From Bacteroidaceae bacterium (GTDB lineage: Bacteria > Bacteroidota > Bacteroidia > Bacteroidales > Bacteroidaceae), in contig JAGCNZ010000081.1 of assembly GCA_017645655.1 (NCBI GenBank), positions 1 to 43,326 of the forward strand: 43,326 nucleotides of DNA, in the 5' to 3' direction. Below the pieces are notes generated by a model. That model made no database searches. It was given only the letters and a program-made list of their open reading frames with translations, and was not told the DNA's origin. Shown here piece after piece: positions 7,478 through 43,277 of the stretch; position 1 is the stretch's first letter, and every line of letters begins with the position of its first letter. The position numbers and the translations under genes are program-made.

Positions 7478-10366
7478 ATGAAACGCCTTTTCTTTCTTTT
7501 AGCTCTTTTTCTGTCTTGTTCGTCACTTCTTTTGAGGGCACAGCAGGCAGCGGCACCCACGACGCTCGAGGGCTGGGCTGAGCGACTGGAGACTTTCGGC
7601 AAGTCTATTCCGCAGGAACAGGTCTTCGTGCACATGGACAACACGTGCTATTTCCTGGGCGACACCATTTACTACAAGGCATACGTGCGTCGCAGCGATA
7701 CCGGCACGCCGAGCCGTCTGAGTGGAGTCCTCTATGCAGAGTTGCTGAATCAGGACGGCTACCTCATGGAGCGGCAACAGCTCGAACTGCGGAACGGCCA
7801 GGTGCACGGCAGTTTTGTCCTTCTGGATACGCTCTACGGAGGCTATTACGAGTTGCGAGCCTATACGCGATGGCAGCTCAACTGGGGTATCACGGAGCAT
7901 GCCCACAACAAGGTCTCCGAGCAATGGTTCTTCAATAAGCGCATGGCGAGGGAGTACTATCAGGACTACGAGAAACTCTACAGCCGCGTCTTTCCTGTCT
8001 TCGACAAGCCAAAGGAACCCGGCGACTTCTTCCACGAGATGACGCTTCGCCCCCTGCGCCGGCAGTCGAAGATAGACGAGACGTCGCCCAAGCCCAGGCT
8101 TCAGCTGTTCCCCGAAGGTGGCAACCTCGTGGCTGGCGTCCCCAATCGGGTCGCTTTTGAGGCAACCAGCAACGAGGGTTTGCATCTGGACGGCAAGGTG
8201 ACTGTGACGGAGGGACAGAGCACGGTTGTTGCCGAGGCCAACGTGGAGCAACGCGGTCGCGGCTCGTTCACGTTTACGCCACAGAGCGGCAAGAGTTACA
8301 CCGTGACCTATACCGGCAAGAAAGGCACGACGAAGGAGACGCTGCCCAGTCCCGACCGGGATGGCGTGGCGCTGCAAGTCATCAATGATGGAGAGGGAAA
8401 GCGAAGAGTGGAAATCCTAAAGGCAGGCGCTGCGGCCAGTGAAGAGCTTGGCATGACCGTGATGCACGATGGCGTGATGCTCGACTTCCAGACCGTTCCC
8501 GCAGGTGCTTCTGCCACGCTCTCCCTGGACGAGGACAAATTGCAGACAGGCGTGTGCCAAGTCACTATATATAATAATGTAGGGCGCGTCTATGCTGACC
8601 GACTCTTTTTCTGTCGCAAGAGCGACTTCGCTCCCAGCAACCTCAGCATCAGCGGCATAGGTGGGAATCCGGTAGAACCTTTCGCACCTGTCAGCCTGTC
8701 GGTCGAGGGTGGCAAGCCCGGCGCGACGGTCAGCGTCTCGGTCTGCGATGCGACGCACAGCGAATACCTCTACGACAACGGCAACATCCTGACTGAGATG
8801 CTTCTGGCCAGCGAGATACGAGGCTTCGTGGAGAATCCTGCCTACTTCTTCGAGAAGGATGATGAGGAGCACAATCGTGCCCTCGACCTCTTGCTCATGA
8901 TTCAGGGGTGGCGTCGCTACGACTGGCACACGATGGCCACGCCCGGCGCGTTTGTCCTCAACCACAAGCCCGAGCAGACACCGCTCCTGGTGGGCGAGGT
9001 GAACAAGTACATGGCGTCGGAGCAAGCCTCGCTCTACGCCGACAATTTCCAGTCGGTGAGTGCGGGCGAGAATGCAACCGATGCTGTCAGCCTGACGGGC
9101 GAGCAGCAGATGACAACCAATGAGGAGAGCGACACGAAGGAGGCTGAGGATGGCGGCAGGGTGACCGAGGCGCGCACGCTTACTGAGACGACAGGTCCCG
9201 AGGTTACTACGGCTCGCGATGAGTTGGCACGCTTCAGCCAGACCGACAAGGAGCTGAAACGCGAGTTGCTCGTCAAGGCGCGCTTTGCCAAACCTGGCGC
9301 CGAGCAGGGAATAGACGGCGAGATGATGACGGAGAAACACCTTTTCTCCATTCCCTCGCCACGTTTCTACGAGGGCTGCATCTTCCATCTGGCGGCGAGT
9401 GACAGCACGAAGTGGAAGGGCAAGACACATGTCTGGGAATATCCCAGCACGGACCGCAACGACAAGCTCAACTACCCGGAGTTCTACGTTCGCCTGCGTC
9501 CCTACTTCCCGCGCTTCGTGAAGCCATATGACTGGTATCAGTGCCACCTCGCTGAAGCCCCGAAGGGATCGGTCATTGCGCCTGATTGGGTGATGGACGG
9601 TTCGCGTCTGCTCGACGAGGTGACCATTGGCATCAAGCGGGCACGCTTGGGCAGGTTCGACCCCACGAAACCCGCCTACGTCATAGATGCCTACCAGGCA
9701 TTCAACGAGACCTGCGATGCGGGCTTCTGTCCGGGCGTCTATTACGGCTACAATCGCTTTGCGCGCGACATTTCACGCACTTTCATCGGCGACATGAACC
9801 TGTCCCGCGACTACGTTCTCGAGCTGCGTATCGACGGCAAGAAGGAGTCCAGCATGTCTGCCGCAGAAGCAAGTCGAACCCACATTGGCGGGGCTTCTAC
9901 GGGTGGAATGCCTGTCGAGACATTCAACATCTCTGCCAACACGAAGCAGAAGTACAACCTGCTGAAGAACTTGGGCAAGGTTTATCTCTACACCGACTAC
10001 AGTCCGCGCCGCGAGGGCAACTCGCTCTACGACGGCGAGGACATCCCCGTCGTTACGGTCGACATACACCTCATCGATGATGTAGGCACGCATCGTGCCA
10101 CATCGCGCGACCGCCGATATATCCTCCCGGGCTATTCCGCGCCCGAGGAATTCTACCAGCCCGACTACTCGACTAAGCCGTTGCCGACCGTCAAGGACTA
10201 TCGTCGCACCCTCTACTGGAACCCGGATTTGCAACTCGACGACAGCGGGAAGGCCGAGTTCCGCTTCTACGGTAACGGCAAACAAACGCATCTCAGCGTC
10301 CGGGCCGAGGGCTTGGCGGGCGACGGAACGCTCCTCACAGGCAAGAGCATGCCGGAGGACAGATAA
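7478..10366 (+). CDS. Exported MG2 (alpha-2-macroglobulin-like) domain protein
   Basis: A 962-residue exported protein. The ATG at 7478 gives a clean signal peptide (MKRLFFLLALFLSCSSLLLRAQ). An MG2-type macroglobulin domain follows at about residues 35-140 (PQEQVFVHMDNTCYFLGDTIYYKAYV), with more immunoglobulin-like beta domains to about 470. The middle (about 500-590) is a low-complexity Thr/Glu-rich linker. The C-terminal region contains a TonB-plug-like stretch (LLDEVTIGIKRARLG) as seen in large Bacteroidetes MG2 proteins, and ends in a further beta domain. Such proteins are thought to be anchored in or near the outer membrane, but their function is not established. A CACGTG array begins at the last base of its stop codon. 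Confidence 0.78.
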   Translation: MKRLFFLLALFLSCSSLLLRAQQAAAPTTLEGWAERLETFGKSIPQEQVFVHMDNTCYFLGDTIYYKAYVRRSDTGTPSRLSGVLYAELLNQDGYLMERQQLELRNGQVHGSFVLLDTLYGGYYELRAYTRWQLNWGITEHAHNKVSEQWFFNKRMAREYYQDYEKLYSRVFPVFDKPKEPGDFFHEMTLRPLRRQSKIDETSPKPRLQLFPEGGNLVAGVPNRVAFEATSNEGLHLDGKVTVTEGQSTVVAEANVEQRGRGSFTFTPQSGKSYTVTYTGKKGTTKETLPSPDRDGVALQVINDGEGKRRVEILKAGAAASEELGMTVMHDGVMLDFQTVPAGASATLSLDEDKLQTGVCQVTIYNNVGRVYADRLFFCRKSDFAPSNLSISGIGGNPVEPFAPVSLSVEGGKPGATVSVSVCDATHSEYLYDNGNILTEMLLASEIRGFVENPAYFFEKDDEEHNRALDLLLMIQGWRRYDWHTMATPGAFVLNHKPEQTPLLVGEVNKYMASEQASLYADNFQSVSAGENATDAVSLTGEQQMTTNEESDTKEAEDGGRVTEARTLTETTGPEVTTARDELARFSQTDKELKRELLVKARFAKPGAEQGIDGEMMTEKHLFSIPSPRFYEGCIFHLAASDSTKWKGKTHVWEYPSTDRNDKLNYPEFYVRLRPYFPRFVKPYDWYQCHLAEAPKGSVIAPDWVMDGSRLLDEVTIGIKRARLGRFDPTKPAYVIDAYQAFNETCDAGFCPGVYYGYNRFARDISRTFIGDMNLSRDYVLELRIDGKKESSMSAAEASRTHIGGASTGGMPVETFNISANTKQKYNLLKNLGKVYLYTDYSPRREGNSLYDGEDIPVVTVDIHLIDDVGTHRATSRDRRYILPGYSAPEEFYQPDYSTKPLPTVKDYRRTLYWNPDLQLDDSGKAEFRFYGNGKQTHLSVRAEGLAGDGTLLTGKSMPEDR

Positions 10367-10492
10367 ACATGCCGAGGGATGATTCAAAACGTCACGTGGG
10401 TAAAATGAAATTATCACGTGTAATATTTCAAATATCACGTGGGTAAAATGAATTTATCACGTGGGTAAATTCCAATCATCCCCTGTGACGTT
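10366..10492 (+). repeat. CACGTG array element, copy A
   Basis: CACGTG boxes at 10393, 10415, 10436 and 10458, plus degenerate boxes GCCGAG at 10371 and CCCCTG at 10480. Steps are 22, 22, 21, 22, 22. Spacers are GGTAAAATGAAATTAT, TAATATTTCAAATAT (15 bp) and GGTAAAATGAATTTAT. The left inner edge AACGTCACG and right edge GTGACGTT are inverted copies. The element starts on the last base of the preceding stop codon and ends 17 bp before the next start codon. Confidence 0.9.
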
Positions 10493-10509
10493 CAAAAACG
10501 AGACTTGTA

Positions 10510-12702
10510 ATGCTGAAGAAGTTATCATTCTATATGCTGTCTGTCTTGCTGTCGTTGGCGGCGCTTCATGCGAAGTCGCCCACCTTCAGCAAGCCCCACG
10601 GCATCTATGATAGCCCGTTCGGCCTCTCCATCACCTCGCCCGTGCCCGGTGCCACGGTGTATTACACCATCGATGGCAGCGACCCGCGAGAGAAAGGGAA
10701 CCTCTACGACGGCGCAATTTGGATGAACACCACACGGGTGATTCGCTCGGCTGTGCTGGTCGGCGACACAGCCTGGACCGACGTCGCCACTGCCTCCTAC
10801 ATCTTCCCTCAAAGCCTCCTGACGCAGCGCAACAGTTATTTCGGATATCCCGCCATGTGGGGCAAGTTCTGCGAAATCTCGGGAACAGCACCCGCCGACT
10901 ACGAGATGGACCCCGAGATAACGGGCGACGAGACCTATGCTGCCTACGTTACCGAAGGCATCCGGACGCTGCCGATTGTCTCCCTCGTGACCGACAAGGG
11001 CAACCTCTTCAGCCAGGTGGCCGACTCGCTGACAGGCGGCATCTACATCTTCACCGGCTGCCCCGTGGGCAACGGCATAGGACGAGGGTGGGAGAGACCC
11101 GTCTGCTTCGAACTCATCGGCGGCGAGGCCCATCACGACCTCACGATAGACTGCTGCCTGAAACTGCATGGCGGACATGGCCGACTGCCCGAGAAGAACC
11201 CCAAGCACGCTTTCCGGCTGCACTTCAAGGCTGGCTACGGACCCAAGATACTCAAGTACAGCGTCTTCGGAGACCGCGCTCCGAATCGCTTCAACGCACT
11301 CGTCCTCCGCACTTTCTTCGGGTATTCATGGCAACATTGGGACAATGCCCAGCGCAACAAGGCACAGTATGCACGCGACCTTTGGACGCGAGAAACGCAG
11401 GCGAAAATGGGCGACCCAATCAGCACAGGGCAGTATGTCCACCTCTTCATCAATGGTCTCTACTGGGGCATGTACAATCTGTGCGAGCGCGTCACTGGCG
11501 ATTTCTGCGCCGAACACTTCGGAGGCACGGAAGAGGACTGGGACGTGACGGAGGTGGACGGCGGCGCCGGACAGTACCACGCCGCGATTCCAACCTGCGG
11601 CACCATCGATGCGTGGAACGAGATGGCCGACCTCATCTACACGCTTCCCAACCATTCGAGCTACATGCACCTCATCGGATGTGGCAGCGACGGCAAGCCA
11701 AACGCCAAATATCCGCCGCTCCTCGACGTGGACAACTACATCCACTATATGCTCATCAACCTTTACGGAGGCAACACAGACTGGGATCATCACAACTGGT
11801 ACGCCTACAGGAACCGCATCTGGGAAGACCAGGGCTTCCGCTTCATCTGCTGGGATTCGGAGAATGTGCTCGTCTCGACAACCGAAAACCTGACCACGAA
11901 AAACAATCGCGGCTGCCCAACAGGCTTCCTCAACCGCCTGATGAAGCAAGGCATCTTTGCCCATCATTTCCATGAAATAGCGCAGCAGATGCTCACACAC
12001 GGCGGACCGCTGACGCCCGAATCAGCCCTCGCCACCTGGGACAGCCTGTATAGCGTCATCGAACTGGCACTCTGGGATGAGGCCGCACGCTGGGGCGACT
12101 ACCGCCGCGACGTCCATCCCTACCAAACGCAAGGCACGCTCTACAAGCCCGACGGCGTCTTCGCAACTGAACGTCAGCGCTTGCGCAACCAGTACTTCCC
12201 AGTCCGCACGGCCAACGTCATTCAGCAACTACGCGACCGCGGCTGGTTCCCCAATACCCCGGCACCAGCCATCTATGTCGACGACATGGAGATTGGTTAC
12301 GGACTTCAGCCGTATTGCACCGAAAGCATGCTCACGATGACAGGCTCGAACATCTATTATACGCTCGACGGCAGCGCACCTGTCAACTGGTTCCAGAACG
12401 ACGAGGGAGCACTCTCGCCGACCGCCAAACCCTATACCGAAGGGGATAACGTGCTCGCCGGACTGCCCGAATCGACCCTCCCCGACACCATCACGCTGCG
12501 TGCCATCAGCAAGGAAGGCAGCGAATGGAGCCCCATCGTCAGCGTCCGCCTTGCCGTCGACAGCCCCGACCTCGTGTCTCTGCCGCGTGAGGAAAAGCCC
12601 AGGAAGGAAGGCATCTTCGACCTCTCCGGCCGCCGCATCACGGCCCGCGACCTCCAAAAGGGCATCTTCGTCGTCAACGGAAAGAAGAGAATCATGAGAT
12701 GA
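10510..12702 (+). CDS. Exported CotH-kinase-like protein with chitobiase C-terminal-type domains
   Basis: A 730-residue exported protein (signal peptide 1-21). Residues about 25-95 match a chitobiase/beta-hexosaminidase C-terminal-type domain (PVPGATVYYTIDGSDPRE). A CotH-kinase region occupies about 150-530: KLHGGHGRLPEKNPKHAFRL, a motif around FNALVLRTFFGYSW, and FINGLYWGMYNLCERV, then FICWDSENVL near the active site. A second chitobiase-type repeat follows (NIYYTLDGSAPV). The C-terminus (GIFDLSGRRI...KGIFVVNGKK) is the short beta-strand tail common on secreted Bacteroidales proteins, related to type IX secretion sorting tails. CotH proteins phosphorylate spore coat proteins in Bacilli; the substrate here is unknown. 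Confidence 0.85.
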   Translation: MLKKLSFYMLSVLLSLAALHAKSPTFSKPHGIYDSPFGLSITSPVPGATVYYTIDGSDPREKGNLYDGAIWMNTTRVIRSAVLVGDTAWTDVATASYIFPQSLLTQRNSYFGYPAMWGKFCEISGTAPADYEMDPEITGDETYAAYVTEGIRTLPIVSLVTDKGNLFSQVADSLTGGIYIFTGCPVGNGIGRGWERPVCFELIGGEAHHDLTIDCCLKLHGGHGRLPEKNPKHAFRLHFKAGYGPKILKYSVFGDRAPNRFNALVLRTFFGYSWQHWDNAQRNKAQYARDLWTRETQAKMGDPISTGQYVHLFINGLYWGMYNLCERVTGDFCAEHFGGTEEDWDVTEVDGGAGQYHAAIPTCGTIDAWNEMADLIYTLPNHSSYMHLIGCGSDGKPNAKYPPLLDVDNYIHYMLINLYGGNTDWDHHNWYAYRNRIWEDQGFRFICWDSENVLVSTTENLTTKNNRGCPTGFLNRLMKQGIFAHHFHEIAQQMLTHGGPLTPESALATWDSLYSVIELALWDEAARWGDYRRDVHPYQTQGTLYKPDGVFATERQRLRNQYFPVRTANVIQQLRDRGWFPNTPAPAIYVDDMEIGYGLQPYCTESMLTMTGSNIYYTLDGSAPVNWFQNDEGALSPTAKPYTEGDNVLAGLPESTLPDTITLRAISKEGSEWSPIVSVRLAVDSPDLVSLPREEKPRKEGIFDLSGRRITARDLQKGIFVVNGKKRIMR

Positions 12703-13526
12703 AAGAGATAGAAATCACATCGCTGGAACGTGACGAGTTGCAGGCATACAGCACGCTCACGGAAGCGCAACTGCGCAACCGCCTCGAGCCGGCCAAGGGC
12801 GTCTTCATCGCTGAAAGCCCGAAAGTCATCAAGGTGGCGCTCGACGCAGGCCTCGAACCAGTGTCTTTACTTTGCGAACGCAAGCATATCCAGGGCGATG
12901 CGCGTGATATCATCGCTCGCCTCCCCGAGGATGTGCCCGTCTATACCGGCAGTCGCGAACTCTTGGCCCGGCTGACAGGCTACACCCTGACGCGCGGCGT
13001 GCTCTGTGCCATGCGGCGGCCACAAGCGCTTTCGCCAGAAGAAGTATGTCGGGGTGCTCGCCGCATCGTCGTCCTTCATGGCGTGTGCGATACGACAAAC
13101 GTCGGCGCCATCTTCCGCTCGGCGGCAGCCCTCGGCATAGATGCCCTGCTGATGACGCGAGATTCGTGCGACCCGCTGAACCGTAGGGCTGTCCGCGTCT
13201 CAATGGGCAGCGTGTTCCTCGTGCCCTGGACATGGCTCGATGCAGAAGACGGAACTGCCGCCGGCACCGTTCACAAACTGCAGGAAATGGGCTTCACGAC
13301 AGCGGCGATGGCACTCAGAAAGGACGACATCAACATCAACGACCCGTTGCTCAGGCAAACGGAGCGTCTGGCGCTCATCATGGGAACAGAGGGCGACGGC
13401 TTGCCCGACGCCGTCATCGATGCTGCCAACCTGGTCGTGAAGATTCCCATGCATCATGGCGTTGACAGTCTCAACGTCGGCAATGCAGCCGCCATTGCTT
13501 TCTGGGAAATCTGCTCCTCACGCTGA
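12699..13526 (+). CDS. SpoU/TrmH-family RNA 2'-O-methyltransferase
   Basis: A 275-residue SPOUT methyltransferase. The N-terminal substrate-binding part (about 1-105) includes KGVFIAESPKVI. The C-terminal knot domain carries the three SpoU motifs: motif 1 DTTNVGAIFRSAAALGID, motif 2 LALIMGTEGDGLPD, and motif 3 IPMHHGVDSLNVGNAAAIAF. It should methylate a ribose 2'-OH in rRNA or tRNA; the target is not readable. Its ATG overlaps the stop of the CotH gene (ATGA), so the two are translationally coupled although functionally unrelated. Confidence 0.93.
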   Translation: MKEIEITSLERDELQAYSTLTEAQLRNRLEPAKGVFIAESPKVIKVALDAGLEPVSLLCERKHIQGDARDIIARLPEDVPVYTGSRELLARLTGYTLTRGVLCAMRRPQALSPEEVCRGARRIVVLHGVCDTTNVGAIFRSAAALGIDALLMTRDSCDPLNRRAVRVSMGSVFLVPWTWLDAEDGTAAGTVHKLQEMGFTTAAMALRKDDININDPLLRQTERLALIMGTEGDGLPDAVIDAANLVVKIPMHHGVDSLNVGNAAAIAFWEICSSR

Positions 13527-13561
13527 GTCCTTCCCCGAGGCGTAGAGGAGGTAAAAGAAAA

Positions 13562-13581
13562 CCCCTCTCCGCAGAGAAGGG
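13562..13581. terminator. Hairpin between converging genes
   Basis: CCCCTCTC-CGCA-GAGAAGGG forms a 7-8 bp stem with one mismatch between the ends of the converging methyltransferase and DUF4954 genes. G/C-rich sequence on both sides suggests a repetitive extragenic palindrome that may serve as terminator. There is no clear T tract. Confidence 0.45.
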
Positions 13582-13596
13582 TAGCTGGTGAGGCTT

Positions 13597-15387: not shown

Positions 15388-15424
15388 AATATAATCTTTT
15401 TACCTGTTTCTGTGCTTTCAGCGT

Positions 15425-15433
15425 GCAAAGATA
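15425..15433 (-). promoter_or_regulatory. -7 box of the DUF4954 gene
   Basis: TATCTTTGC on the minus strand is an exact -7 consensus, 37 nt upstream of the start codon at 15387. Confidence 0.6.
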
Positions 15434-15477
15434 CAAAGAAATTAGGAATTATGAATTACGAATTGAGAATTAATTCG

Positions 15478-15486
15478 TATCTTTGC
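15478..15486 (+). promoter_or_regulatory. -7 box of the queDE-cbi operon
   Basis: TATCTTTGC lies 15 nt upstream of the queD ATG. No other promoter-like sequence or riboswitch is visible before the cbi genes, so this may drive queD through the HAD gene at 23575. Confidence 0.6.
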
Positions 15487-15501
15487 AAAAACTTTTATAT
15501 C

Positions 15502-15834
15502 ATGTATTATATAAGTAAACGGCTGGTCATATCAGCCAGCCACCACTTGGAGCTGTCCTATCCCAGCAAGTGCAGTCAGCTGCACGGACACAATTGGACT
15601 ATTACCGTTCACTGCAAGGCTCGTGAACTCAATGCAGATGGAATGGTTGTTGACTTCAAACTAATCAAGCAGAAGATTGAGTCGCAACTGGATCATGCGA
15701 ATCTTAACGAGGTGCTTCCCTGCAACCCAACTGCCGAGAACATTGCGAAGTGGGTGTGCGACCAGCTGCCCGAATGCTATCGTGTCGACGTGCAAGAGAG
15801 CGAGGGCAACATGGCAACATATGAAGAGGAATGA
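15502..15834 (+). CDS. queD: 6-carboxy-5,6,7,8-tetrahydropterin synthase (QueD)
   Basis: A 110-residue protein of the PTPS/QueD family, which converts 7,8-dihydroneopterin triphosphate to 6-carboxytetrahydropterin in the queuosine/7-deazaguanine pathway. Zinc-binding histidines are seen in ISASHHL and LHGHNW, the catalytic cysteine in SKCSQLHGH, and the C-terminal ESEGNMATYEEE carries the conserved substrate glutamate. The ATG at 15502 is chosen because the promoter -7 box ends at 15486 and the N-terminal strand begins directly after it. It overlaps queE by 4 nt (ATGA). Confidence 0.93.
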   Translation: MYYISKRLVISASHHLELSYPSKCSQLHGHNWTITVHCKARELNADGMVVDFKLIKQKIESQLDHANLNEVLPCNPTAENIAKWVCDQLPECYRVDVQESEGNMATYEEE

Positions 15835-16391
15835 GGGTCAACGAGACTTTCCTGTCGCTTCAGGGTGAAGGACACTACACTGGAACACCTGCCTTCTTCC
15901 TTCGTCTCTCCGGTTGCAACCTGCAGTGTCCCTTTTGTGACACCAGTCATCAAACCTTCATGGAGATGAGCGAGGAAGCGATTGTCGTGGAAGCGAGTCG
16001 GCACGAATCTCGTCACATCGTCATCACGGGCGGCGAACCTGCCTTGCAACTCACGCAGTCTCTCATTGACCAGCTGCACGAAGCAGGCTTCTTCATACAG
16101 GTAGAGACGAACGGCACCATGCCTCTTCCGCAAGGCATAGACTGGGTGACATGCTCGCCAAAAGGTGAGGTCGTCATTCCTGTCGATGAGCTCAAGGTAC
16201 TTTATCATGGCGAGGGAACCGACCTGAGCATAGCCGAACGTCTTCAGGCAAAGGAGTATCGCCTGCAGCCCCTCGACACTGGCGACGAGATGCGCAACCG
16301 AATCATCCTGCGGGACACAATCGCATACGTCTTGCAGCATCCCAAGTGGTTGCTCTCACTGCAGACACATAAGATGCTCGGCATTAAATGA
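15831..16391 (+). CDS. queE: 7-carboxy-7-deazaguanine synthase (QueE), radical SAM
   Basis: A 186-residue radical SAM enzyme that converts 6-carboxytetrahydropterin to 7-carboxy-7-deazaguanine. The N-terminus has the QueE signature NETFLSLQGEGHYTGTPAFF, and the [4Fe-4S] cysteines are CNLQCPFC (CX3CX2C). The SAM-binding TGGEP follows at about 64. It is slightly short compared with many QueE proteins but complete in motifs. Start and stop are coupled to queD. The first cobalamin gene begins 28 nt downstream, so the two pathways may share a transcript. The queuosine reductase QueG needs cobalamin, which gives a plausible reason for linkage. Confidence 0.93.
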   Translation: MRVNETFLSLQGEGHYTGTPAFFLRLSGCNLQCPFCDTSHQTFMEMSEEAIVVEASRHESRHIVITGGEPALQLTQSLIDQLHEAGFFIQVETNGTMPLPQGIDWVTCSPKGEVVIPVDELKVLYHGEGTDLSIAERLQAKEYRLQPLDTGDEMRNRIILRDTIAYVLQHPKWLLSLQTHKMLGIK

Positions 16392-16419
16392 CGTTGCGTT
16401 CACAATAGAGAATAAATCA

Positions 16420-20860: not shown

Positions 20861-20958
20861 CGGAACGTCTGGGAGAAGGTGGCGAGTCGGCTTCCCGGAC
20901 GGCGTTTGCCGGCAAGCGTGCCACAGGCTCAACGAAAGAGACAAACGGGGCGACTCCG

Positions 20959-21106
20959 AACACGCCACGCTTGGTTGCAAAACGTCACGTGGGTAAAACA
21001 AAATTATCACGTGGGTAAAATGAAAATATCACGTGGAATATTTCAAATATCACGTGGGTAAAATGAATTTATCACGTGGGTCGTTCAGAATCATCCCGTG
21101 CGACGC
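20959..21106 (+). repeat. CACGTG array element, copy B (one extra unit)
   Basis: Boxes at 20986, 21008, 21030, 21051 and 21073 are CACGTG; GCCACG at 20964 and CCCGTG at 21095 are degenerate. Steps are 22, 22, 22, 21, 22, 22. The 15-bp spacer is GAATATTTCAAATAT. It has one unit more than copies A and C. It occupies most of the 263-bp gap inside the cbi operon, between cbiG/F and cbiJ/D. Confidence 0.9.
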
Positions 21107-21123
21107 AGAAAACTTTAACTGAC

Positions 21124-28281: not shown

Positions 28282-28287
28282 TTTGTG

Positions 28288-28414
28288 ACCCCGGCATGGG
28301 ATGTCGTCGAACGTCACGTGGGTAAAATAAAATTATCACGTGTAATATTTCAAATATCACGTGGGTAAAATGATTTTATCACGTGGGTAAAATCCAGACA
28401 TCCCGTGCCACGTT
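28288..28414 (+). repeat. CACGTG array element, copy C
   Basis: CACGTG at 28315, 28337, 28358 and 28380, with degenerate boxes GGCATG at 28293 and CCCGTG at 28402. Steps are 22, 22, 21, 22, 22, identical to copy A. The 15-bp spacer is TAATATTTCAAATAT, as in copy A. It sits between the converging cobT and cbiB genes. Confidence 0.9.
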
Positions 28415-28454: not shown

Positions 28455-28469
28455 TGCCTGCAGTTTTGC

Positions 28470-33074: not shown

Positions 33075-33132
33075 GGTGTTTTCTTCTCTTTTCGGTCGGT
33101 GTCGGTTGCTGCCTCCTCAGGGTTGTCTTGCC

Positions 33133-33281
33133 GACGAGGCAGGGGGTGCCTGAAAGCATCACGTGGGTAAGTTGAATTTATCACGTGGGTAAAATGAATT
33201 TATCACGTGTAATATTTTAAATATCACGTGTAATATTTTCAATTTACCCGTGTGATGTTTTCAGTCATCCCGTGTTGCGTT
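33133..33281 (+). repeat. CACGTG array element, copy D
   Basis: CACGTG at 33160, 33182, 33204 and 33225, then CCCGTG at 33247 and 33269. Steps are 22, 22, 21, 22, 22. The 15-bp spacer is TAATATTTTAAATAT. It lies in the 272-bp gap between cbiK and cbiA on the minus-strand operon, and is oriented against transcription, unlike copies A, B, E and F. Between it and cbiA, a GC-rich stretch has CTGCCTC and GAGGCAG (7-bp stem). Confidence 0.88.
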
Positions 33282-33346
33282 GCCGGCATCTTCGTGGAGC
33301 ACCTGCTGATGTCCCGCGGAGATGCCGATGAGATGCTGCAGGAAGA

Positions 33347-36638: not shown

Positions 36639-36639
36639 G

Positions 36640-38721
36640 CTATTTTACGTGTACGGCAAACGAGGCGAAGACGCATCTTCCGGGATGCAGGGTAGAGAAG
36701 TTGCTGTTCCAGGGACGTGTGTCGCGCTTGTTGAAGATGTTCTCGATGCCGATGCCGGGCATCAACTGAACTTTCTTCAGGTAGAATGTATGTGTGGTAT
36801 GGAGGTCGAATTGGGTGTAGCCGGGTGCATATCCGTAGCTTGTGCTCCATCTTTGACCTTGCAGATGGCCGTTAATGTCGATGTTGAGGCGATAGTTTCT
36901 CCATGTATGTTCCCATCCCGCAAACACTCGTCCCGTGTGTCTGATGCTTTTGTCGGTCGGTTCCGTCGTGGTCTCATACTGCTGGGTCTGGGTGTTTAGC
37001 TCTATTGTTTTTGCTTCTGTATCTGTGAAGGTATAGGCTCCACCCAGGCGTATGTTAAGTGGCAGATAGAATGTGGCACCCAGGTGGAGTCCCTTAACCT
37101 TCGCTTTATCTATGTTATCTCGTTGTTGATACTTGGTTGCGGTAGGATACTTCGTGTCCAGGCCTGATTCGGCAATCTCGTCGTCGGTGAGTACGCGATA
37201 GGATATCATGTCTCGCACGTCGTTGAAGAAGCCGCCGAGCTTCAGGCTTAGCCAGTTGTTGTTGTATTCTGCGCTGACGTTGTAGTAGTTGCTTTTCTCC
37301 GGTTTCAGCTCTTGATTGCCGATGGTGACGTTCTTCGTCTCGTCGTTCTCGTAGTGCATCTGCAGCAGGGTAGGAGTGCGATAGCCGGTGCTGTAGCCTG
37401 CGCGGAAGCGGAACTTGCCTGGCGCATACATCAGTGCGACGCTTGGTGTGGCGTAACTGCCAAAGTAGCGATTGTAGATGTAGCGCACGCCGAGGACGCC
37501 TTGAAGGTTCTTGCAGAGTTGCATCTCGTCTTGTGCGAACAGAGATAGTGTGTACATGGTGCGGAAGTCGAAGTTGTAGCTTTTGTACGTTTCGTGGACG
37601 TATTCTGCTCCTGCCGAGAGTTTGTTCCAGGTGCCGAGTCGGAAGATGCCTTTCAGCGTGCCGTTGTAGTAGTGTGTTTTCTTGGTGAGTTGTGTGCCGC
37701 CGGGGCGGAAGGTGTCGAACGAGTCGCGCCTGCTTATCAGATTGTCGCTGTAGAAGTCGGCTTCGAGGTAGGTCTTGCTGCTGATTTTCCATGTGGCTCC
37801 TGCTCCGTACATATAGTCGCGGTGGTGCAGGTCGTAGGTGTAGGCGGCGGTTTCCGTGTAGACTGTTTCGCCTTTCTTGGTGGAGCCTTTGTAGTAGCGA
37901 GCCGTCTGCGGACGGTCTGTATGGTAGTCATAGAAGCTTCCTTTCAGGTATAGTGTCACGCCGTGGCCTGCGTCCCAGGTGAACCTCTGGTTGAGCTGGT
38001 TGCTGTGGAACCCTTGGCTCATGACTCTGCCGGTGGGCATGAGCTTGCCCGTCACTTCCTCCGTCTTGTTCACCTGCCAGTTGCCAGCCTGTTTGTGCTG
38101 GAAGGCGGAGCTGCTGCTGAAGCGTCCCTTTTGCGCATTCACCGCGATGGATTCGGTGAGGCGGCCTTTGCTGGTGTACGACGTCGTGTTGTTGATGTCC
38201 ACTTCAGGCTCGTCGTGTTTCTCTGCGGAGGGTGCTGTGGTGGATGGTGCAGTCGTGATGATATTGATGACGCCGCCTATTGCCTCGCTGCCGTAGAGCG
38301 CCGAGCTGGCTCCGGATAGCACTTCTATTCGCTTCACGTTGGCCATGTTGATGCGTGTGTAGCGGTCGTCGCCCGTCAGTCGCTTGCCGTTCTCCAGGAT
38401 GAGTATATAGTCCTCGCCCAGTCCGTTCAGCATCATCGTCGAGCCCATACCATTGGTCATCATGGTGACGCTTGATGTGAGGCGAGTCAGCGCGTCCTCA
38501 AGGCTTGTGACGTGCATCCTTTGTAGTTCCTCGGAGGTTATGACCTGGACGGGTACTGCGGTGTTTTGAGCTTTGTTGTGCGTGCCGGTGCCGGTCACGA
38601 CGACCTGTGTCAGCTCGGTGTTGCGCATAGTGCTGTCTGCTGCTGCCTTCTGGGCAAAAGCGGTGATGGGACACAGCAAGCCCGTCAACAGGGCAAGCAG
38701 CACCCGATGGGAATGTTGCAT
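36640..38721 (-). CDS. btuB: TonB-dependent receptor, BtuB-like
   Basis: A 693-residue receptor. Start at 38721 (MQHSHRVLLALLTGLLCPITAFAQ) gives the best signal peptide; in-frame ATGs at 38745 and 38754 are possible. TonB-box-like LTQVVVTGTGT, plug domain with VPVQVITSEELQRM, LILENGKRLTGDD, VKRIEVLSGASSALYGSEA and GVINIITTA, then the barrel, ending CVFASFAVHVK. The cobalamin riboswitch in its leader argues that the ligand is cobalamin or another corrinoid. It resembles the second receptor in length and layout, but the sequences differ enough that they are old paralogues. Confidence 0.9.
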   Translation of the reverse strand: MQHSHRVLLALLTGLLCPITAFAQKAAADSTMRNTELTQVVVTGTGTHNKAQNTAVPVQVITSEELQRMHVTSLEDALTRLTSSVTMMTNGMGSTMMLNGLGEDYILILENGKRLTGDDRYTRINMANVKRIEVLSGASSALYGSEAIGGVINIITTAPSTTAPSAEKHDEPEVDINNTTSYTSKGRLTESIAVNAQKGRFSSSSAFQHKQAGNWQVNKTEEVTGKLMPTGRVMSQGFHSNQLNQRFTWDAGHGVTLYLKGSFYDYHTDRPQTARYYKGSTKKGETVYTETAAYTYDLHHRDYMYGAGATWKISSKTYLEADFYSDNLISRRDSFDTFRPGGTQLTKKTHYYNGTLKGIFRLGTWNKLSAGAEYVHETYKSYNFDFRTMYTLSLFAQDEMQLCKNLQGVLGVRYIYNRYFGSYATPSVALMYAPGKFRFRAGYSTGYRTPTLLQMHYENDETKNVTIGNQELKPEKSNYYNVSAEYNNNWLSLKLGGFFNDVRDMISYRVLTDDEIAESGLDTKYPTATKYQQRDNIDKAKVKGLHLGATFYLPLNIRLGGAYTFTDTEAKTIELNTQTQQYETTTEPTDKSIRHTGRVFAGWEHTWRNYRLNIDINGHLQGQRWSTSYGYAPGYTQFDLHTTHTFYLKKVQLMPGIGIENIFNKRDTRPWNSNFSTLHPGRCVFASFAVHVK

Positions 38722-38789
38722 GATGTGTAAGTTTTTTAGAGTCATGTCCGCCATAATCCCGCAGCAGAACTGGTGTTATTTAGTTTCGC

Positions 38790-38963
38790 ATTCAGGCAGG
38801 TTTCCTGACTTTGCCCCCGAACATGCACCTTCCCATCGGTTTAGCAACCCGACAGTGGCTTTCTCGGCATGTGCGATAATGGGCATCTACAGTAGCGGGT
38901 ACTGTTCCGGATTCACACCGGATTCCCTCTCTGCCAATGGTTGCAGACCAATGGCATCACCTT
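38790..38963 (-). ncRNA. Cobalamin (AdoCbl-type) riboswitch
   Basis: On the minus strand the leader carries the B12-riboswitch landmarks in order: AAGGTGATGCC, a hairpin (TGCCATTGG/CCATTGGCA), AGAGGGAATCCGGTGTGAA, CAGTACCCGCTACTGT, AGCCACTG, GGGAAGG, and the B12 box AGTCAGGAAACCTGCCTG (38793-38810). It ends about 70 nt before the btuB start, so it can control translation or early termination of the receptor-cbiK operon, and probably cbiA onward by read-through. It is the only such element seen in the window. Confidence 0.96.
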
Positions 38964-38972
38964 AAATGCGCT

Positions 38973-39004
38973 GCAAAATTACACATTATTTATAATATAA
39001 GCAA
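38973..39004 (-). promoter_or_regulatory. Promoter of the riboswitch-btuB operon
   Basis: On the minus strand TTG (39002-39004), 20 nt, then TAATTTTGC (38973-38981) fits the Bacteroidetes promoter. Transcription would start just before the riboswitch, near 38967. Confidence 0.75.
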
Positions 39005-39060
39005 GGATTTCACTCAAAAAAAGAGTGATAAAGTGCGGTATGCTCTGTGTCTGGATTTCT

Positions 39061-39209
39061 AACGCGGCACAGGGGGATTGAAAACGCGGCACGTGATAAA
39101 TGAAATTAACCCACGTTATATTTTAATTTTAACACGTGATAAATTCATTTTACCCATGTTAGAATTTCAATTAACCCACGTGACGTTTTGAACTGCCCCG
39201 CGTGGCGTT
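39061..39209 (-). repeat. CACGTG array element, copy E
   Basis: Boxes at 39068 (CACAGG), 39090 (CACGTG), 39112 (CACGTT), 39133 (CACGTG), 39155 (CATGTT), 39177 (CACGTG) and 39199 (CGCGTG). Steps are 22, 22, 21, 22, 22, 22. The 15-bp spacer reads TTAAAATTAAAATAT on the minus strand. Both ends keep the inverted AACGC(C/G)... edges. More decayed than the other copies. It begins 8 bp after the purF stop and lies upstream of the btuB promoter. Confidence 0.85.
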
Positions 39210-39217
39210 TGGAAATC

Positions 39218-40645
39218 TCACTTGTTTTCTTCCTCGAGGGAATAGAAGGAACTGCCGTCGAAACAGTGCGTGCAGATACGTTCCTTCGGCAGACCGATGG
39301 CCTTGACGAGTGTCTCGAGCTTCGAGAAGCGCAGGGAGTCGAGGTTCAGGCGGCGGGCTATCTCATCGACCATGCGTTTGTACTCGGGGCTGTCAGTACG
39401 GGTGTAGGCTTCGAGGTTCTTGTTGTCGTCGCCCTCGAAGTCTTTGATGATGCGGCGGGTGAGCAGTTCCAAATCGCTCTTGCTCGCGCTGTAGTTGACG
39501 AAGGGACAGCTGTAAACAAGCGGCGGACAACCTATTCGCATGTGAACCTCCTTGGCGCCGAGGTCGTGGAGCACTTTCGTGTTGTCCCTCAACTGCGTGC
39601 CTCTCACGATACTATCATCGCAGAAGAGCACGCGTTTGCCTTCCAGGACGTCCTTGTTGGCGATGAGCTTCATCTTGGCAACAAGGTTTCGCATCTCCTG
39701 ATTGCTGGGCGTAAAGGAGCGCGGCCAAGTGGGTGTGTACTTACTTATAGCGCGCATATAGGGACAGCCGTGCCCCTGAGCATAGCCCACAGCCATGCCT
39801 ACGCCGCTGTCCGGAATGCCGCAAGCGCAATCCACCTCTGTCTGGTCTTCCTTTCCCATTACCCGTCCGCATTCGTTTCGCACCATTTCCGTGTTCCTGC
39901 CCTCATAGTTGCTGGTAGGGAAACCGTAGTAAACCCACAGGAATGAGCAGATTTGCATACGAGGATTGGGCTTCCTGATAACCGTCATCTCGTCCGAAGT
40001 GATGCGTACAATCTCGCCGGGACCGACGAAATAACTGGTCTCGAAGCCCAGATTGGGGAAGGCCGACGTCTCGCTCGTCACGGCAAGCGCCCCTTCTTTC
40101 TTGCCCACCACGATTGGCGTCCTGCCCCACGAGTCGCGCGCAGCAATGATGCCGTTCTCGGTGAGGAGCAGCATGGAGCACGAGCCCTTGATGTGCTTGA
40201 AGACAATCTCAATGCCGTCCACGAAGTCCTTACCTTTTATAATAAGCAGGGCGACGAGTTCCGTCGGGTTGATTTTGCCGCTGCTGAACTCGCTGAGGTG
40301 TCCTCCTTCGTCGAGCAACTGCTGTGCCAAGTCCTCCTGATTCGTTATCTTCGCCACGGTGACGAGTGCGAAGCGACCCAAATGACTGTTCATAAGCATC
40401 GGTTGAGCATCGGTATCGCTGATGACGCCAATGCCCGAGCGACCCACAAACTTGTCGAGCTCGGGCTCGAAACGCGAGCGGAAGTAGGTGTTCTCGAGGT
40501 TGTGTATGCTCCTTAGGAACTCGCCTGAATCGCTTAGAGTGGCCATGCCGCCACGCTTCGTGCCAAGATGTGATTGATAGTCTGTGCCGTAAAAAAGGTC
40601 AGCAGTGCACTTCTGCTTCTGTACCGTACCGAAGAATCCACCCAT
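39218..40645 (-). CDS. PurF-like amidophosphoribosyltransferase lacking the N-terminal cysteine
   Basis: A 475-residue protein with the two PurF domains. The N-terminal Ntn-hydrolase-like domain starts MGGFFGTVQKQKC, whereas active PurF starts MCGI/MCG with the glutaminase nucleophile directly after Met. The first cysteine here is at residue 13. Downstream motifs are retained: RGGMATL, HNLEN, RDSWGRTPIVVG. The PRPP loop is intact (VLFCDDSIVRGTQLRD), and iron-sulfur-type cysteines occur (GCPPLVYSCPF and RICTHCFDGS). It may use free ammonia, or be a regulatory or differently acting paralogue. I recall similar MGGFFG-type paralogues in Bacteroidetes. Start chosen at the first ATG after the promoter leader. 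Confidence 0.88.
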   Translation of the reverse strand: MGGFFGTVQKQKCTADLFYGTDYQSHLGTKRGGMATLSDSGEFLRSIHNLENTYFRSRFEPELDKFVGRSGIGVISDTDAQPMLMNSHLGRFALVTVAKITNQEDLAQQLLDEGGHLSEFSSGKINPTELVALLIIKGKDFVDGIEIVFKHIKGSCSMLLLTENGIIAARDSWGRTPIVVGKKEGALAVTSETSAFPNLGFETSYFVGPGEIVRITSDEMTVIRKPNPRMQICSFLWVYYGFPTSNYEGRNTEMVRNECGRVMGKEDQTEVDCACGIPDSGVGMAVGYAQGHGCPYMRAISKYTPTWPRSFTPSNQEMRNLVAKMKLIANKDVLEGKRVLFCDDSIVRGTQLRDNTKVLHDLGAKEVHMRIGCPPLVYSCPFVNYSASKSDLELLTRRIIKDFEGDDNKNLEAYTRTDSPEYKRMVDEIARRLNLDSLRFSKLETLVKAIGLPKERICTHCFDGSSFYSLEEENK

Positions 40646-40722
40646 TCTTTTCTAAATTAAGAGTTAAGAATGAAGAGTGAAGAATGAGAGTTACCTCACT
40701 CTTGCCCATCATTTTTTCGAGT

Positions 40723-40754
40723 GCAAAAGTACTGCGTTTCCTGCTTTTCTGCAA
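40723..40754 (-). promoter_or_regulatory. Promoter of the purF-like gene
   Basis: On the minus strand TTG (40752-40754), 20 nt, then TACTTTTGC (40723-40731). The leader of about 70 nt contains tandem AAGAATG/AAGAGTG-like words (40655-40690) of unknown meaning. Confidence 0.65.
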
Positions 40755-40809
40755 GAAATCTTTGCCCTTTTTTCTTGATATAAAGCAAAAAAGTTTTAAG
40801 GCGGCTTGG

Positions 40810-43035
40810 TTAGTTGGGATACACGAGCTTGAAGTCGAGCTGCTTACGGTAGAGATCGGCATGCGCAACCTGTACCTTGACGCTGTCTCCGAGGTTGTAG
40901 CAATGGTGGTAACGCCTGCCTTTCAGGCAATAGTTCTGTTCGTCGAAGTCATAGTAATCACCCTCCAAGTCGCGAAGCGGTATCATGCCTTCGCATTTAT
41001 TCTCGTCTATCTCGACGTAGATGCCGAACTCCGTGACGCCGGATATCGTGCCTTGGAAGGTTTCGCCCAAGTGGTCGCTCATGAACTCGACCTGTTTGTA
41101 CTTGATGCTCGCCCTTTCTGCCGAGGCCGCAGTCTGTTCCATGTCGCTGCAATGCTCACAGAATTCCTCGTATTTATCCTGCCCTACATTGCGTCCGCCC
41201 TCAGCGTAGCGAGTCAGCAACCTGTGTACCATGAGGTCGGGATAGCGGCGAATCGGGGAGGTGAAGTGTGTGTAGTAGTCGAACGCGAGGCCGTAATGTC
41301 CGCAATTGAACGTGCTGTACTTGGCCTTCATCATCGCTCTGAGCGTAATCATCTCGATGACATTTTGCTCGCGCTTGCCTTTGACGTCGTCGAGGAGGCG
41401 GTTCAAGTTGCGACTTATCTCGTTCCGATTGCCCGTCGTCTTCAGCCTGTGGCCGAATTTACGGACAAAGTCGGCGAGGTTCAAGAGCTTTTGCGGATCG
41501 GGATTTTCGTGGATACGATAGGGCAGGACCTTGGGCTTCTGGTTCTTCGGAACCTTGCCTATGCTCTCGGCAACCGTTCTGTTCGCCAAAAGCATGAACT
41601 CCTCGATGAGTTTGTTGGCGTCCTTCGCCACCTTGAAGTACACGCCAGTCGGGTGTCCGTCGGCATCGATGTTGAAGCGCACCTCACACCTGTCGAAGTC
41701 CACAGCCCCGGCTGCGAAGCGCTTTTGACGCAGTATCTTTGCCATGCGATTGAGGATGATGAGCGGCTCGGCCAAGTCCTCCGCAGGTTTTGCCCCGTTA
41801 CAGCCTGGAGCAGGCAATGGAGCGGCATCTCCGGGAGCCTTATAATCCTCCTCGCTTGCCTCGTGATGGTCCTCGAGGACCTTCTGCACCTCTTCATACG
41901 TGAAGCGCCTATCGCTCCGAGTTACCGTGTGAGCCAGCTTCCAATACTTCACCTCGGCCTTCTCGTTCATGTGGAAGATGACCGAATATGTCAGCTTGTC
42001 CTCGTCGGGACGGAGCGAGCAAATGAAGTTGCAAAGGCGTTCCGGCAGCATTGGAATCGTGCGGTCCACGAGATAGACACTCGTTGCGCGCTTGTAGGCT
42101 TCCTTGTCGATGATGGAGCCCTCCTTGACGTAGTGGCTGACGTCGGCAATGTGGACGCCCACTTCCCACAGCCCCTTCTTGATTTCACGGATGCTGAGCG
42201 CGTCGTCGAAGTCTTTCGCGTCGTACGGGTCGATGGTGAAAGTCAGGACATCTCGCATGTCGAGTCGGCGGGCAATCTCTTCCTCGGTGATGCCTGGAAC
42301 GAGCTTCTCGGCAGCTTTCTCCACGGCGGCGGGATAGACATAGGGCAGTCCGTACTCGGCCAAGATAGCGTGCATCTCGGCATTATTCTCGCCTGTCTTG
42401 CCAAGTATGTCAACCACCTTGCCAATCGGGTTCTTCGCTCTGTCCGGCCATTCCACGATACGGACCACGGCTTTGTCGCCCGTCTTGCCTTTTTTGAGGT
42501 TGTCTTTCGGGATGAAGATATCGTTTGCAAGGGTTCTGTCCTCAGTCAAGAGGTATGCGTAGCCCTTCTGAACCTGCAAGGTTCCCACGAAGGTCTTGTC
42601 GCTTCGCTTGATGATGTCGGTCACCGAAGCCTCGCGAACATGGTGTTTACGGCGGGCAAGCAGCGTGACTTGGACTGTGTCGCCATCCATCGCATGCAGG
42701 CTGTTTCGCTCGGCCACAAGGATAGGTTCGCCGCCGTCGGCAGGTTCGAAGGTGTTTTTGCCGTTAGCCTTTCGGTGGAAGATGCCGGTCATCACCTGCG
42801 AAGGCATGTTCAAAGTGTAGTACCCACGCGGTTGCTCCTTGACGAAATCGTCCATGAGAAGGCCCTCGAGCACGTCGATGAGGAGCATCTTTGCCTGGCT
42901 CGTCCGCAGATGAAGCTGCTTGCAGATGCTCTTCAGGGGAAACGTGACGGCTGGGTTCTCTTGGAAAAAGTCGATGACAACGCGTTCTAAGTCGTTCTTT
43001 CGCAGTCCGTGGCTGCCGGTTTTCTTCTTGCTCAT
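40810..43035 (-). CDS. rnr: Ribonuclease R
   Basis: A 741-residue 3'-5' exoribonuclease of the RNB family. Layout: N-terminal winged-helix (about 10-75), cold-shock domains (about 80-235), catalytic RNB domain (about 250-590), and a C-terminal S1 domain (about 640-735, FQGTISGVTEFGIYVEI). The active-site acids are in FTIDPYDAKDFDDALS; HYTHFTSPIRRYPDLMVHR is the family signature. An insert of about 20 residues (EDYKAPGDAAPLPAPGCNG) breaks the RNB domain near 410 and looks like a surface loop. Single gene with its own promoter. Confidence 0.96.
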   Translation of the reverse strand: MSKKKTGSHGLRKNDLERVVIDFFQENPAVTFPLKSICKQLHLRTSQAKMLLIDVLEGLLMDDFVKEQPRGYYTLNMPSQVMTGIFHRKANGKNTFEPADGGEPILVAERNSLHAMDGDTVQVTLLARRKHHVREASVTDIIKRSDKTFVGTLQVQKGYAYLLTEDRTLANDIFIPKDNLKKGKTGDKAVVRIVEWPDRAKNPIGKVVDILGKTGENNAEMHAILAEYGLPYVYPAAVEKAAEKLVPGITEEEIARRLDMRDVLTFTIDPYDAKDFDDALSIREIKKGLWEVGVHIADVSHYVKEGSIIDKEAYKRATSVYLVDRTIPMLPERLCNFICSLRPDEDKLTYSVIFHMNEKAEVKYWKLAHTVTRSDRRFTYEEVQKVLEDHHEASEEDYKAPGDAAPLPAPGCNGAKPAEDLAEPLIILNRMAKILRQKRFAAGAVDFDRCEVRFNIDADGHPTGVYFKVAKDANKLIEEFMLLANRTVAESIGKVPKNQKPKVLPYRIHENPDPQKLLNLADFVRKFGHRLKTTGNRNEISRNLNRLLDDVKGKREQNVIEMITLRAMMKAKYSTFNCGHYGLAFDYYTHFTSPIRRYPDLMVHRLLTRYAEGGRNVGQDKYEEFCEHCSDMEQTAASAERASIKYKQVEFMSDHLGETFQGTISGVTEFGIYVEIDENKCEGMIPLRDLEGDYYDFDEQNYCLKGRRYHHCYNLGDSVKVQVAHADLYRKQLDFKLVYPN

Positions 43036-43051
43036 AACACAAATGTTTTGG

Positions 43052-43060
43052 GCAAATTTA
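43052..43060 (-). promoter_or_regulatory. -7 box of rnr
   Basis: TAAATTTGC on the minus strand fits TAnnTTTGC, 16 nt upstream of the rnr start codon. No good TTG is seen at -33. Confidence 0.55.
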
Positions 43061-43152
43061 CGAAATTTCTGTGATATGTCGGCTACTTCGGCGAGGAAAA
43101 TTTCAAAATTTCTATTGTTTGCCGACTCGACTTGTCAGGCAAGGGTTTTCGG

Positions 43153-43277
43153 CGACCCACGTGATAAATTAAATTTACCCACGTGATAAATTGATTTTAC
43201 CCACGTGATATTTGAAATATTCCACGTGATAATTTCATTTTACCCACGTGAAGTTTTTCATCGTCGCACGCCGCGTT
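43153..43277 (-). repeat. CACGTG array element, copy F
   Basis: CACGTG at 43158, 43180, 43202, 43223 and 43245, then CACGCC at 43267. Steps are 22, 22, 21, 22, 22. On the minus strand the 15-bp spacer is GAATATTTCAAATAT, identical to copy B. Upstream of rnr and near the window end; apart from the rnr promoter nothing else is seen in 43036-43326. Confidence 0.9.

Follow-up and report, generated by a model that had tools for sequence, protein, structure and literature searches.

We report on a 43,326-nucleotide stretch of DNA from a Bacteroidaceae bacterium (assembly GCA_017645655.1, contig JAGCNZ010000081.1, positions 1 to 43,326; here called the window) and on a family of tandem arrays that lie between its genes and between those of related uncultured gut bacteria. 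The window carries a cobalamin-biosynthesis cluster, as evidenced by a Pfam search of ten proteins that flank the arrays, as well as a cobalamin riboswitch (38779-38979, minus strand) that Rfam detects in the same gap as one of the arrays. Each array is a row of CACGTG palindromes (boxes) that follow one another every 22 bp or so, and CACGTG occurs 36 times in the window, compared with a mean of 15.05 (standard deviation, 3.91; maximum, 26) in 100 dinucleotide shuffles. An earlier note on this DNA had described six intergenic arrays with steps of 22 bp except for one 21-bp step per copy. All six are present and intergenic by our own gene calls, in convergent and co-directional gaps, and every one of them has a single 21-bp step, with remaining steps of 22 bp. 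A seventh, small array escaped that note. Comparisons with other genomes, presented below, show that pitch and place are conserved and that CACGTG is only one unit sequence among many. The arrays of the window are as follows.

Array 1, 10366-10492, plus strand: boxes at 10393, 10415, 10436, and 10458, with steps of 22, 21, and 22 bp (10393-10463); it lies between co-directional genes, one with a weak MG2 match below the cutoff and one CotH-like.
Array 2, 20959-21106, plus strand: boxes at 20986, 21008, 21030, 21051, 21073, and 21095 (the last CCCGTG), with steps of 22, 22, 21, 22, and 22 bp (20986-21100); it is flanked by a CbiG/TP_methylase gene and a CbiJ/CbiD gene.
Array 3, 28288-28414, plus strand: boxes at 28315, 28337, 28358, 28380, and 28402 (the last CCCGTG), with steps of 22, 21, 22, and 22 bp (28315-28407); it is flanked by convergent CobT-like (DBI_PRT) and CobD/CbiB genes.
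Array 4, 33133-33281, plus strand: boxes at 33160, 33182, 33204, 33225, 33247, and 33269 (the last two CCCGTG), with steps of 22, 22, 21, 22, and 22 bp (33160-33274); it is flanked by two minus-strand genes, one CbiA-like and one CbiK.
Array 5, 39061-39209, minus strand (reverse orientation): boxes at 39090, 39112, 39133, 39155, 39177, and 39199, with steps of 22, 21, 22, 22, and 22 bp (39090-39204); it is more diverged, several boxes carrying a mismatch, and is flanked by the cobalamin riboswitch and a GATase_7 gene.
Array 6, 43153-43277, minus strand (reverse orientation): boxes at 43158, 43180, 43202, 43223, and 43245, with steps of 22, 22, 21, and 22 bp (43158-43250); it lies upstream of an RNB-domain (RNase R-like) gene.
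Array 7, 2087-2134, no strand assigned: three boxes with steps of 20 and 22 bp and other spacers; it overlaps a weakly scoring open reading frame (1802-2515).

The host assembly of the window (G000; 2.74 Mb [2,738 kb] in 130 contigs, 84% complete) contains 502 pairs of the form CACGTG-N15/16-CACGTG, compared with 2 for a control pattern read backwards, in the kind of genome search that the earlier note had called for. The array number in G000 is roughly 150-200, with estimates of about 205 from the pair count and about 146 from contigs picked blind. Our sample of this genome covers 484 kb of the 2,738 kb and comprises the window and loci L020-L029, which were already known to bear arrays, together with the blind contigs L196-L210; genes were called here and throughout with our own codon-usage script rather than taken from curated annotation. 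The sample holds 44 arrays, 42 of which have no overlap of more than 20 bp with a predicted gene. Chaining of boxes, which accepted only steps of 20-23 bp, gave 40 arrays of at least three boxes. Their steps measure 22 bp in 124 cases, 21 bp in 39, and 20 bp in 2, and a single 21-bp step is present in 37 of the 40.

The 15-nt spacer of the 21-bp step is TAATATTTCAAATAT or GAATATTTCAAATAT in 23 of 39 cases, and the commonest spacers flanking this core are GGTAAAATGAAATTAT on the left and GGTAAAATCAATTTAT and GGTAAAATGAATTTAT on the right. Because left and right spacers differ consistently, the copies seem to share an ancestor. When 36 copies were aligned on the core, information faded smoothly outward through degenerate units that kept the 22-bp register. 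The inverted ends described in the earlier note hold only in part: AACGT-CACGTG is frequent at the left and ACGTT at the right, yet the aligned copies have no sharp end. Neighboring 16-nt spacers match exactly in 10 of 50 pairs, compared with 3.4% between arrays, indicating that units also duplicate in place; moreover, many arrays contain runs of identical units.

Among 36 congeners searched for CACGTG pairs, G027 has 44, G012 has 29, G018 has 24, G005 has 15, G008 has 14, G035 has 9, and G024 has 8, while the remainder have 0 to 4. Because such pairs are numerous in only some congeners, tandem periods in noncoding DNA were surveyed without reference to any motif. The sample of 25 genomes and 200,520 noncoding bp is nonrandom. 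It started from first contigs; was extended in the array-bearing G012, G016, G022, G025, G032, and G035 and in the array-less G004, G011, G013, G017, G023, and G031; and includes contigs chosen by a cobT or CACGTG match in G001, G002, G010, G015, G016, G018, G021, G027, G029, and G033. G005 contributes only 3.4 kb. Period 22 is the commonest noncoding tandem period, accounting for 73 of 184 arrays and occurring in 18 of the 25 congeners; the other seven have no 22-bp array in the sampled DNA. Period 21 accounts for 8 of the 184, and 23 bp is absent among the 20 periods listed. Period 22 is also absent among the 12 commonest periods of 135 coding arrays, and in first contigs alone, lag 22 ranks first in 7 of 19 genomes. 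The second commonest noncoding period is 14 bp (30/184), some of whose arrays consist of AT-rich 7-mers.

The 22-bp units themselves are species specific. Twelve of 15 arrays in G012 are built from AGGTTAACCATTATG and all 10 in G025 from CGCACC-NN-GGTGCG, and in both genomes the conserved half-sites stand out from variable spacers. Units elsewhere include CTGCAGCAGAAAC in G022, TTCCCAGCCTGGGAA in G033, and GGGACGCGTCCC in G035.

Period 22 is not confined to the genus. It also leads, with other sequences, among the noncoding arrays of RUG13783 (5 of 12) and of the actinobacterium Nocardioides acrostichi (6 of 15, with three of the five stretches chosen for CACGTG). In strain CBS4Y-1 of the latter (L070, L340, L342, L343, and L344), exact 22-bp arrays lie between predicted genes, with units that include GTGAAAACTGGCGACGGGTCAC and CGCGAAATGTCCCGCGAGGGGT, and two of these arrays run into each other. 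Across other families (20 genomes; 57,577 noncoding bp), period 22 accounts for 2 of 28 arrays, and small samples gave 2 of 4 in Porphyromonas, 3 of 7 in Mediterranea, 0 of 3 in Phocaeicola, and 0 of 1 in RUG12460.

CACGTG pairs at 22 bp are rare and patchy across the order. A scan of 295 genomes, in which G000 is the sole member of its genus, found them in seven, with 390 pairs in G000 and 1 to 6 in each of the other six, compared with one pair each in nine genomes at a control spacing. In genomes that were reached by way of CACGTG loci, pair counts range from 2 to 181 and mostly lie far above the reversed control; two do not exceed it (G086, 2 versus 11; G088, 5 versus 7). Arrays of CACGTG with mostly 21-bp steps occur at L041, L064, L099, L124, L139, L042, and L082, among them metagenome-assembled genomes of Verrucomicrobiales, Planctomycetaceae, and Chitinophagaceae, and several have AAAACGATTTT-like spacers. 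In 42 viral stretches, arrays of 21 bp are mixed with arrays of 22 bp, and several contain long perfect hairpins. In the viral contigs L177, L189, L161, L165, L152, and L188, tandem units of about 22 bp are themselves long hairpins, and CACGTG arises at the junction of abutting hairpins.

A comparison of orthologous loci, which the earlier note had suggested, finds arrays at the same gaps with unrelated units. For conserved adjacent gene pairs whose gap is no shorter than 80 bp in either genome, arrays were present in both gaps in 5 cases, in neither in 11, and in only one in 0. All five shared cases are against G012, which has an array at 5 of 5 gaps that carry one in G000 and at 0 of 8 that are array-less there (Fisher's exact test, p = 0.0008). 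The units at these five gaps are CACGTG in G000 and GGTTAACC-like in G012, and the longest words common to the paired arrays measure 6 to 11 bp, with one exception of 25 bp that lies outside the array. When short gaps are included, 5 are shared, 2 carry an array in G000 only, and 77 have one in neither genome; the two G000-only gaps involve relatives G002 and G029, in which the genes abut, and are excluded by the 80-bp limit.

Four genes followed by an array in G000 were also traced in relatives that were the best protein matches, not a random choice; G012 at the S24-peptidase gene enters both tests. Downstream of recR, five of seven relatives have an array (six of eight genomes with G000 included), and four different units are represented: AACACGTTAA occurs in G005, G035, and G008 and CACACGAGGATTTTACAAACAC in G027, G020 has a weaker array, with 25 of 40 matches at a lag of 22 bp, and no array follows recR in G013 or G012. 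In G000, G005, G035, and G008, the boxes of the recR arrays stand in a common register relative to the start codon of the following gene, and G000 and G005 have recognizably the same outermost unit. Downstream of the S24-peptidase gene, five of six relatives have an array, again with four different units; G027, G035, and G008 have units of their own, while G024 and G012 share GGTTAACC. Six other species thus have a 22-bp array in this gap, and G013 (L360) has another repeat there, with best lags of 18 and 27 bp. The match to the S24-peptidase gene in G005 (contig C33, 148-813) is split into two overlapping parts, as though the reading frame were broken. When these two genes are pooled with a response-regulator gene and luxS, 13 of 25 relative gaps carry an array, whereas the genus sample has 65 arrays for 351 gaps (binomial p = 0.00017). 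This p value serves only as a guide, since the closest relatives were used and the gaps are not independent of one another. The cobalamin cluster was compared in G018, G029, and G021 as well; it is rearranged there, with no orthologous arrays, and a candidate array in G029 turned out to consist of 7-bp repeats.

Placement relative to genes was scored for arrays with a gene on both sides (39 of 44 in G000 and 65 of 73 in the congeners). Arrays in G000 favor convergent over divergent gaps (11/24 versus 5/45; p = 0.002), with hardly any such bias in the congeners (11/37 versus 16/76; p = 0.35), and in co-directional gaps the array lies nearer the stop codon in 16 of 23 and 27 of 38 cases (43 of 61 together). 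Convergent and near-stop placement suits both the avoidance of promoters and a role at gene borders.

The symmetry of the units bears on whether they act as DNA or as RNA. Unit consensuses are more dyad symmetric than their shuffles (7.07 versus 5.66 pairs), with p < 0.05 in 24 of 73, and in ten sets of units, the two halves of the dyad show little or no covariation. In four sets, namely, both G000 spacer types, the G000 core, and the TTTGCAAA-type spacers found in other genomes, the halves pair as often as the individual columns predict (0.47 versus 0.48, 0.54 versus 0.53, 0.93 versus 0.92, and 0.53 versus 0.52), and in G012 (0.60 versus 0.64) and G025 (0.56 versus 0.62) they pair less often. 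Because half-pairing is so close to the column expectation, a change in one half goes mostly unanswered in the other, as is the case for the half-sites of a dimer. As far as sequence comparison can tell, the evidence favors rows of sites for a putative dimeric protein over RNA hairpins.

We propose, tentatively and at somewhat less than an even chance, that the arrays are rows of dyad-symmetric sites occupied by a dimeric DNA-binding protein, or by a few related ones, likely with a role in local chromosome structure. Two turns of relaxed B-DNA measure 21 bp, and in cells, with negative supercoiling, about 22. The sites would be locked at two turns of DNA as it exists in the cell, with dimers lined up next to one another along a single face of the helix; neighboring dimers would contact each other, and the body of the protein would set the pitch. 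Such a ruler on DNA would explain why 22 bp is common to unrelated units. The reading head, and hence the site sequence, would vary between species, and arrays at gene borders would often stay in place while their units are replaced through drift of specificity and tandem duplication within the array. In G000, one core (CACGTG with GGTAAAATGAATTTAT spacers) would also have been copied to many places. The most likely output would be a bound patch that separates neighboring transcription units or organizes the nucleoid. The earlier note had likewise read the boxes as dimeric protein sites on one face, and the fixed pitch, the dyads with little or no covariation, and the kept positions all fit that suggestion. 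Pitch, dyads, common positions, species-specific units, and duplication of units are shown by the sequences; the binding protein, its cooperativity, and the function of the arrays are inferred.

We also posit, as a possibility that leans toward doubtful, a new class of bacterial chromosomal element, defined by geometry and place and not by sequence. Here, arrays of mirror-symmetric sites spaced at 22 bp would outlast species divergence at gene borders while their sequence is replaced species by species, in the manner of eukaryotic satellites, and would form the platform of a cooperative chromosome-organizing protein whose reading of DNA evolves fast; similar arrays would have arisen or spread in other phyla, as in Nocardioides. 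If a protein does read the arrays, they would offer a natural series in which to follow the joint change of a DNA-binding protein and its many target sites and might represent a new way of partitioning bacterial chromosomes.

Several observations weigh against the proposal of a row of protein sites. Duplication of units can by itself pass on a fixed period. Some genomes contain several unrelated units, for instance, AACACGTTAA, CCCTATAGGG, ACATGTATGT, and GGGACACGTCCC in G035, and the same is true of G027, so that several proteins or a loose mode of reading would be needed. Forty-nine of the 73 consensus units lack significant palindromy. Half-pairing lies 0.03-0.07 above expectation in G016 (0.51 versus 0.47), G027 (0.56 versus 0.53), G035 (0.61 versus 0.54), and G022 (0.62 versus 0.58), sets that are small (13 to 31 units each) and in which likeness within one array can itself raise the values. 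The homogeneous, position-specific spacers of G000 point to copying, not to selection on the boxes alone. Moreover, the congeners nearest by RecR (G005, G035, and G008, at 97, 96, and 94%) have few CACGTG pairs (15, 9, and 14) compared with the 502 of G000, and the CACGTG form therefore looks like a recent local expansion. Downstream of the response-regulator gene, only three of nine relatives have an array (G005, G008, and G025, the last of its own GTCGCA..GGTGCGA type), and downstream of luxS none of three does (G005, G035, and G028, two of them close), so that the luxS array was either gained in G000 or lost in the others. Finally, predicted RNA folding is stronger than in shuffles on both strands in G000 (mean z, -3.2 and -3.1; 27 and 28 of 36 below -2), and it is strong for 52 of 73 congener arrays on either strand, compared with 1 of 36 random window stretches. 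Folding of this strength is expected of any row of palindromes, however, and fails to separate protein dyads from hairpins.

The main rival, itself doubtful, is a lineage-specific minisatellite without function, in which an old array at each place would change by substitution and by gaining or losing whole units, so that the 22-bp period is inherited, the sequence drifts, and arrays are occasionally copied, as in the recent CACGTG burst of G000. Such a history would account for the identical adjacent spacers and runs of identical units, the apparent recency of the expansion, and the luxS array seen in G000 and absent from three relatives. It also agrees with the neighbors of the arrays: 20 of the 23 small proteins listed beside arrays were scanned, and these are mostly enzymes or housekeeping proteins with no common class. 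Among the 20, a sigma-70-type factor, an OmpR-type response regulator, and an S24 peptidase with a weak YdaS match contain domains typical of regulators or DNA-binding proteins, but nothing ties these three to the arrays. Inheritance of the period by unit duplication would account for its prevalence inside the genus. Nevertheless, inheritance from a single origin is insufficient because period 22 leads outside the genus too, in RUG13783 and N. acrostichi, with other sequences. Length changes are also very few for a minisatellite, within the 20- to 23-bp limits of chaining: adjacent spacers in G000 differ at about one-quarter of positions, yet only 2 of 165 steps measure 20 bp. The dyad symmetry above shuffles is a further point against drift without function. 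Should the arrays prove to be a functionless minisatellite, they would still be a striking example of dispersed bacterial DNA whose sequence is replaced in a coordinated manner and would raise the question of what sets the 22-bp ruler.

An RNA role is unlikely. Under this explanation, the arrays would be rows of hairpins at gene 3' ends that terminate transcription or protect mRNA, comparable to bacterial interspersed mosaic elements (BIMEs) or tandem terminators, and the folding on both strands, the convergent bias in G000, and the position near the stop codon in co-directional gaps are as it would predict. The near absence of covariation, the lack of any strand preference (12 versus 8), and the lack of convergent bias in congeners argue against it, and it leaves the fixed pitch unexplained. 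Also, replacement of terminators by arrays is not supported: array-bearing 3' ends are not short of terminator-like hairpins (11/42 versus 25/134; 14/42 versus 70/333), and the response-regulator gene, the single gene traced closely, is followed by one in either case. In G000, G005, and G008 a strong hairpin comes after the array, and in relatives without the array (e.g., G020, G027, G035, and G012) a hairpin comes immediately after the gene. Control of transcript ends, one of the roles raised in the earlier note, is weakened accordingly.

A nonautonomous mobile repeat, which that note had also raised, is very improbable: a transposase would have spread a miniature inverted-repeat transposable element (MITE) or a relative of repetitive extragenic palindromic (REP) sequences whose subterminal sites happen to lie 22 bp apart, which suits the dispersed G000 core with its position-specific spacers (about 205 or 146 copies) and the luxS array found only in G000, but the aligned copies have neither sharp ends nor conserved termini, the REP transposase family PF01797 (RAYT, Y1_Tnp) was not found in G000 (an 84% complete assembly), G005, G008, G012, G016, or G018, and arrays of unrelated sequence occupy the same places in other species. 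For G000 itself the mobile reading is partly borne out by the common core and the luxS array. PF01797 does match in 6 of 22 congeners searched, a search that covered genomes other than G024, G025, G027, and G035. Target duplications were looked for by eye only, in array-less luxS gaps that are too diverged and at arrays without a defined end.

In iterons and multisite operator arrays, direct repeats lie about two helical turns apart, with dimers on one face, usually at one or a few loci with one sequence. The arrays described here share with phased dimeric-site arrays a spacing of dyads by whole helical turns, but they occupy about 150-200 places and have species-specific sequences. They share with minisatellites and variable-number tandem repeats (VNTRs) the local duplication of tandem units (10 of 50 adjacent spacers identical) and lack a period that varies freely between unrelated loci, 22 bp being found in 73 of 184. 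In contrast to MITEs, the 36 aligned copies show no sharp terminal inverted repeats.

Other known repeats are closer in habit. REP sequences and BIMEs, as far as the cited accounts go, are high-copy extragenic palindromes, sometimes in regularly spaced clusters, with reported protein-binding sites (PMC2817692, PMC3733652). The G000 arrays are likewise high-copy, extragenic, and palindromic (502 pairs; 42 of 44 outside genes), but they are direct repeats with a fixed 22-bp pitch and a species-specific sequence at a given place. PINSR, a 188-bp intergenic repeat of Prevotella intermedia and P. nigrescens, is described as restricted to this Bacteroidales lineage, without terminal inverted repeats, and present in 177 and 184 copies in two strains (PMC4755523). 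The arrays resemble PINSR in being intergenic, lineage restricted, and free of terminal inverted repeats; going by its description only, PINSR is set apart in that it is defined by one 188-bp sequence and not by a period. The intergenic VNTR-105 and VNTR-141 of Wolbachia, in the account available, are tandem repeats with palindromic parts that gain and lose units, for which concerted evolution was proposed (PMC3287509). Tandem units, palindromic parts, and unit gain and loss are common to both systems, but the Wolbachia repeats are portrayed there as having periods of 105 and 141 bp and near-identical units, whereas one short period here unites many unrelated units across a genus.

Searches of the open-access literature turned up no description of arrays with a 22-bp pitch. 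Rfam detects only the cobalamin riboswitch and a tRNA in the window, leaving the arrays without a match above the gathering score, and a blastn search of one array against phage records gave no match. The earlier note likewise knew of no described element with this design. By these comparisons, the arrays would be classed as a bacterial intergenic repeat and probably belong neither to the REP/RAYT group, judging by the transposase test, nor to MITEs, judging by their ends, nor to a known RNA family. Bacterial repeat families are recognized by their sequence. Here, a fixed 22-bp pitch and a place at gene borders outlive the sequence, and sequence searches therefore miss the class.

A separate repeat is also present in the window. 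Two copies of a 65-nt element, 85% identical, lie at 7388-7452 and 15423-15487, with inverted ends (GTGCAAAGATACGAAG...TTCGTATCTTTGCA), and the first of them overlaps the start, at 7448, of the longest open reading frame.

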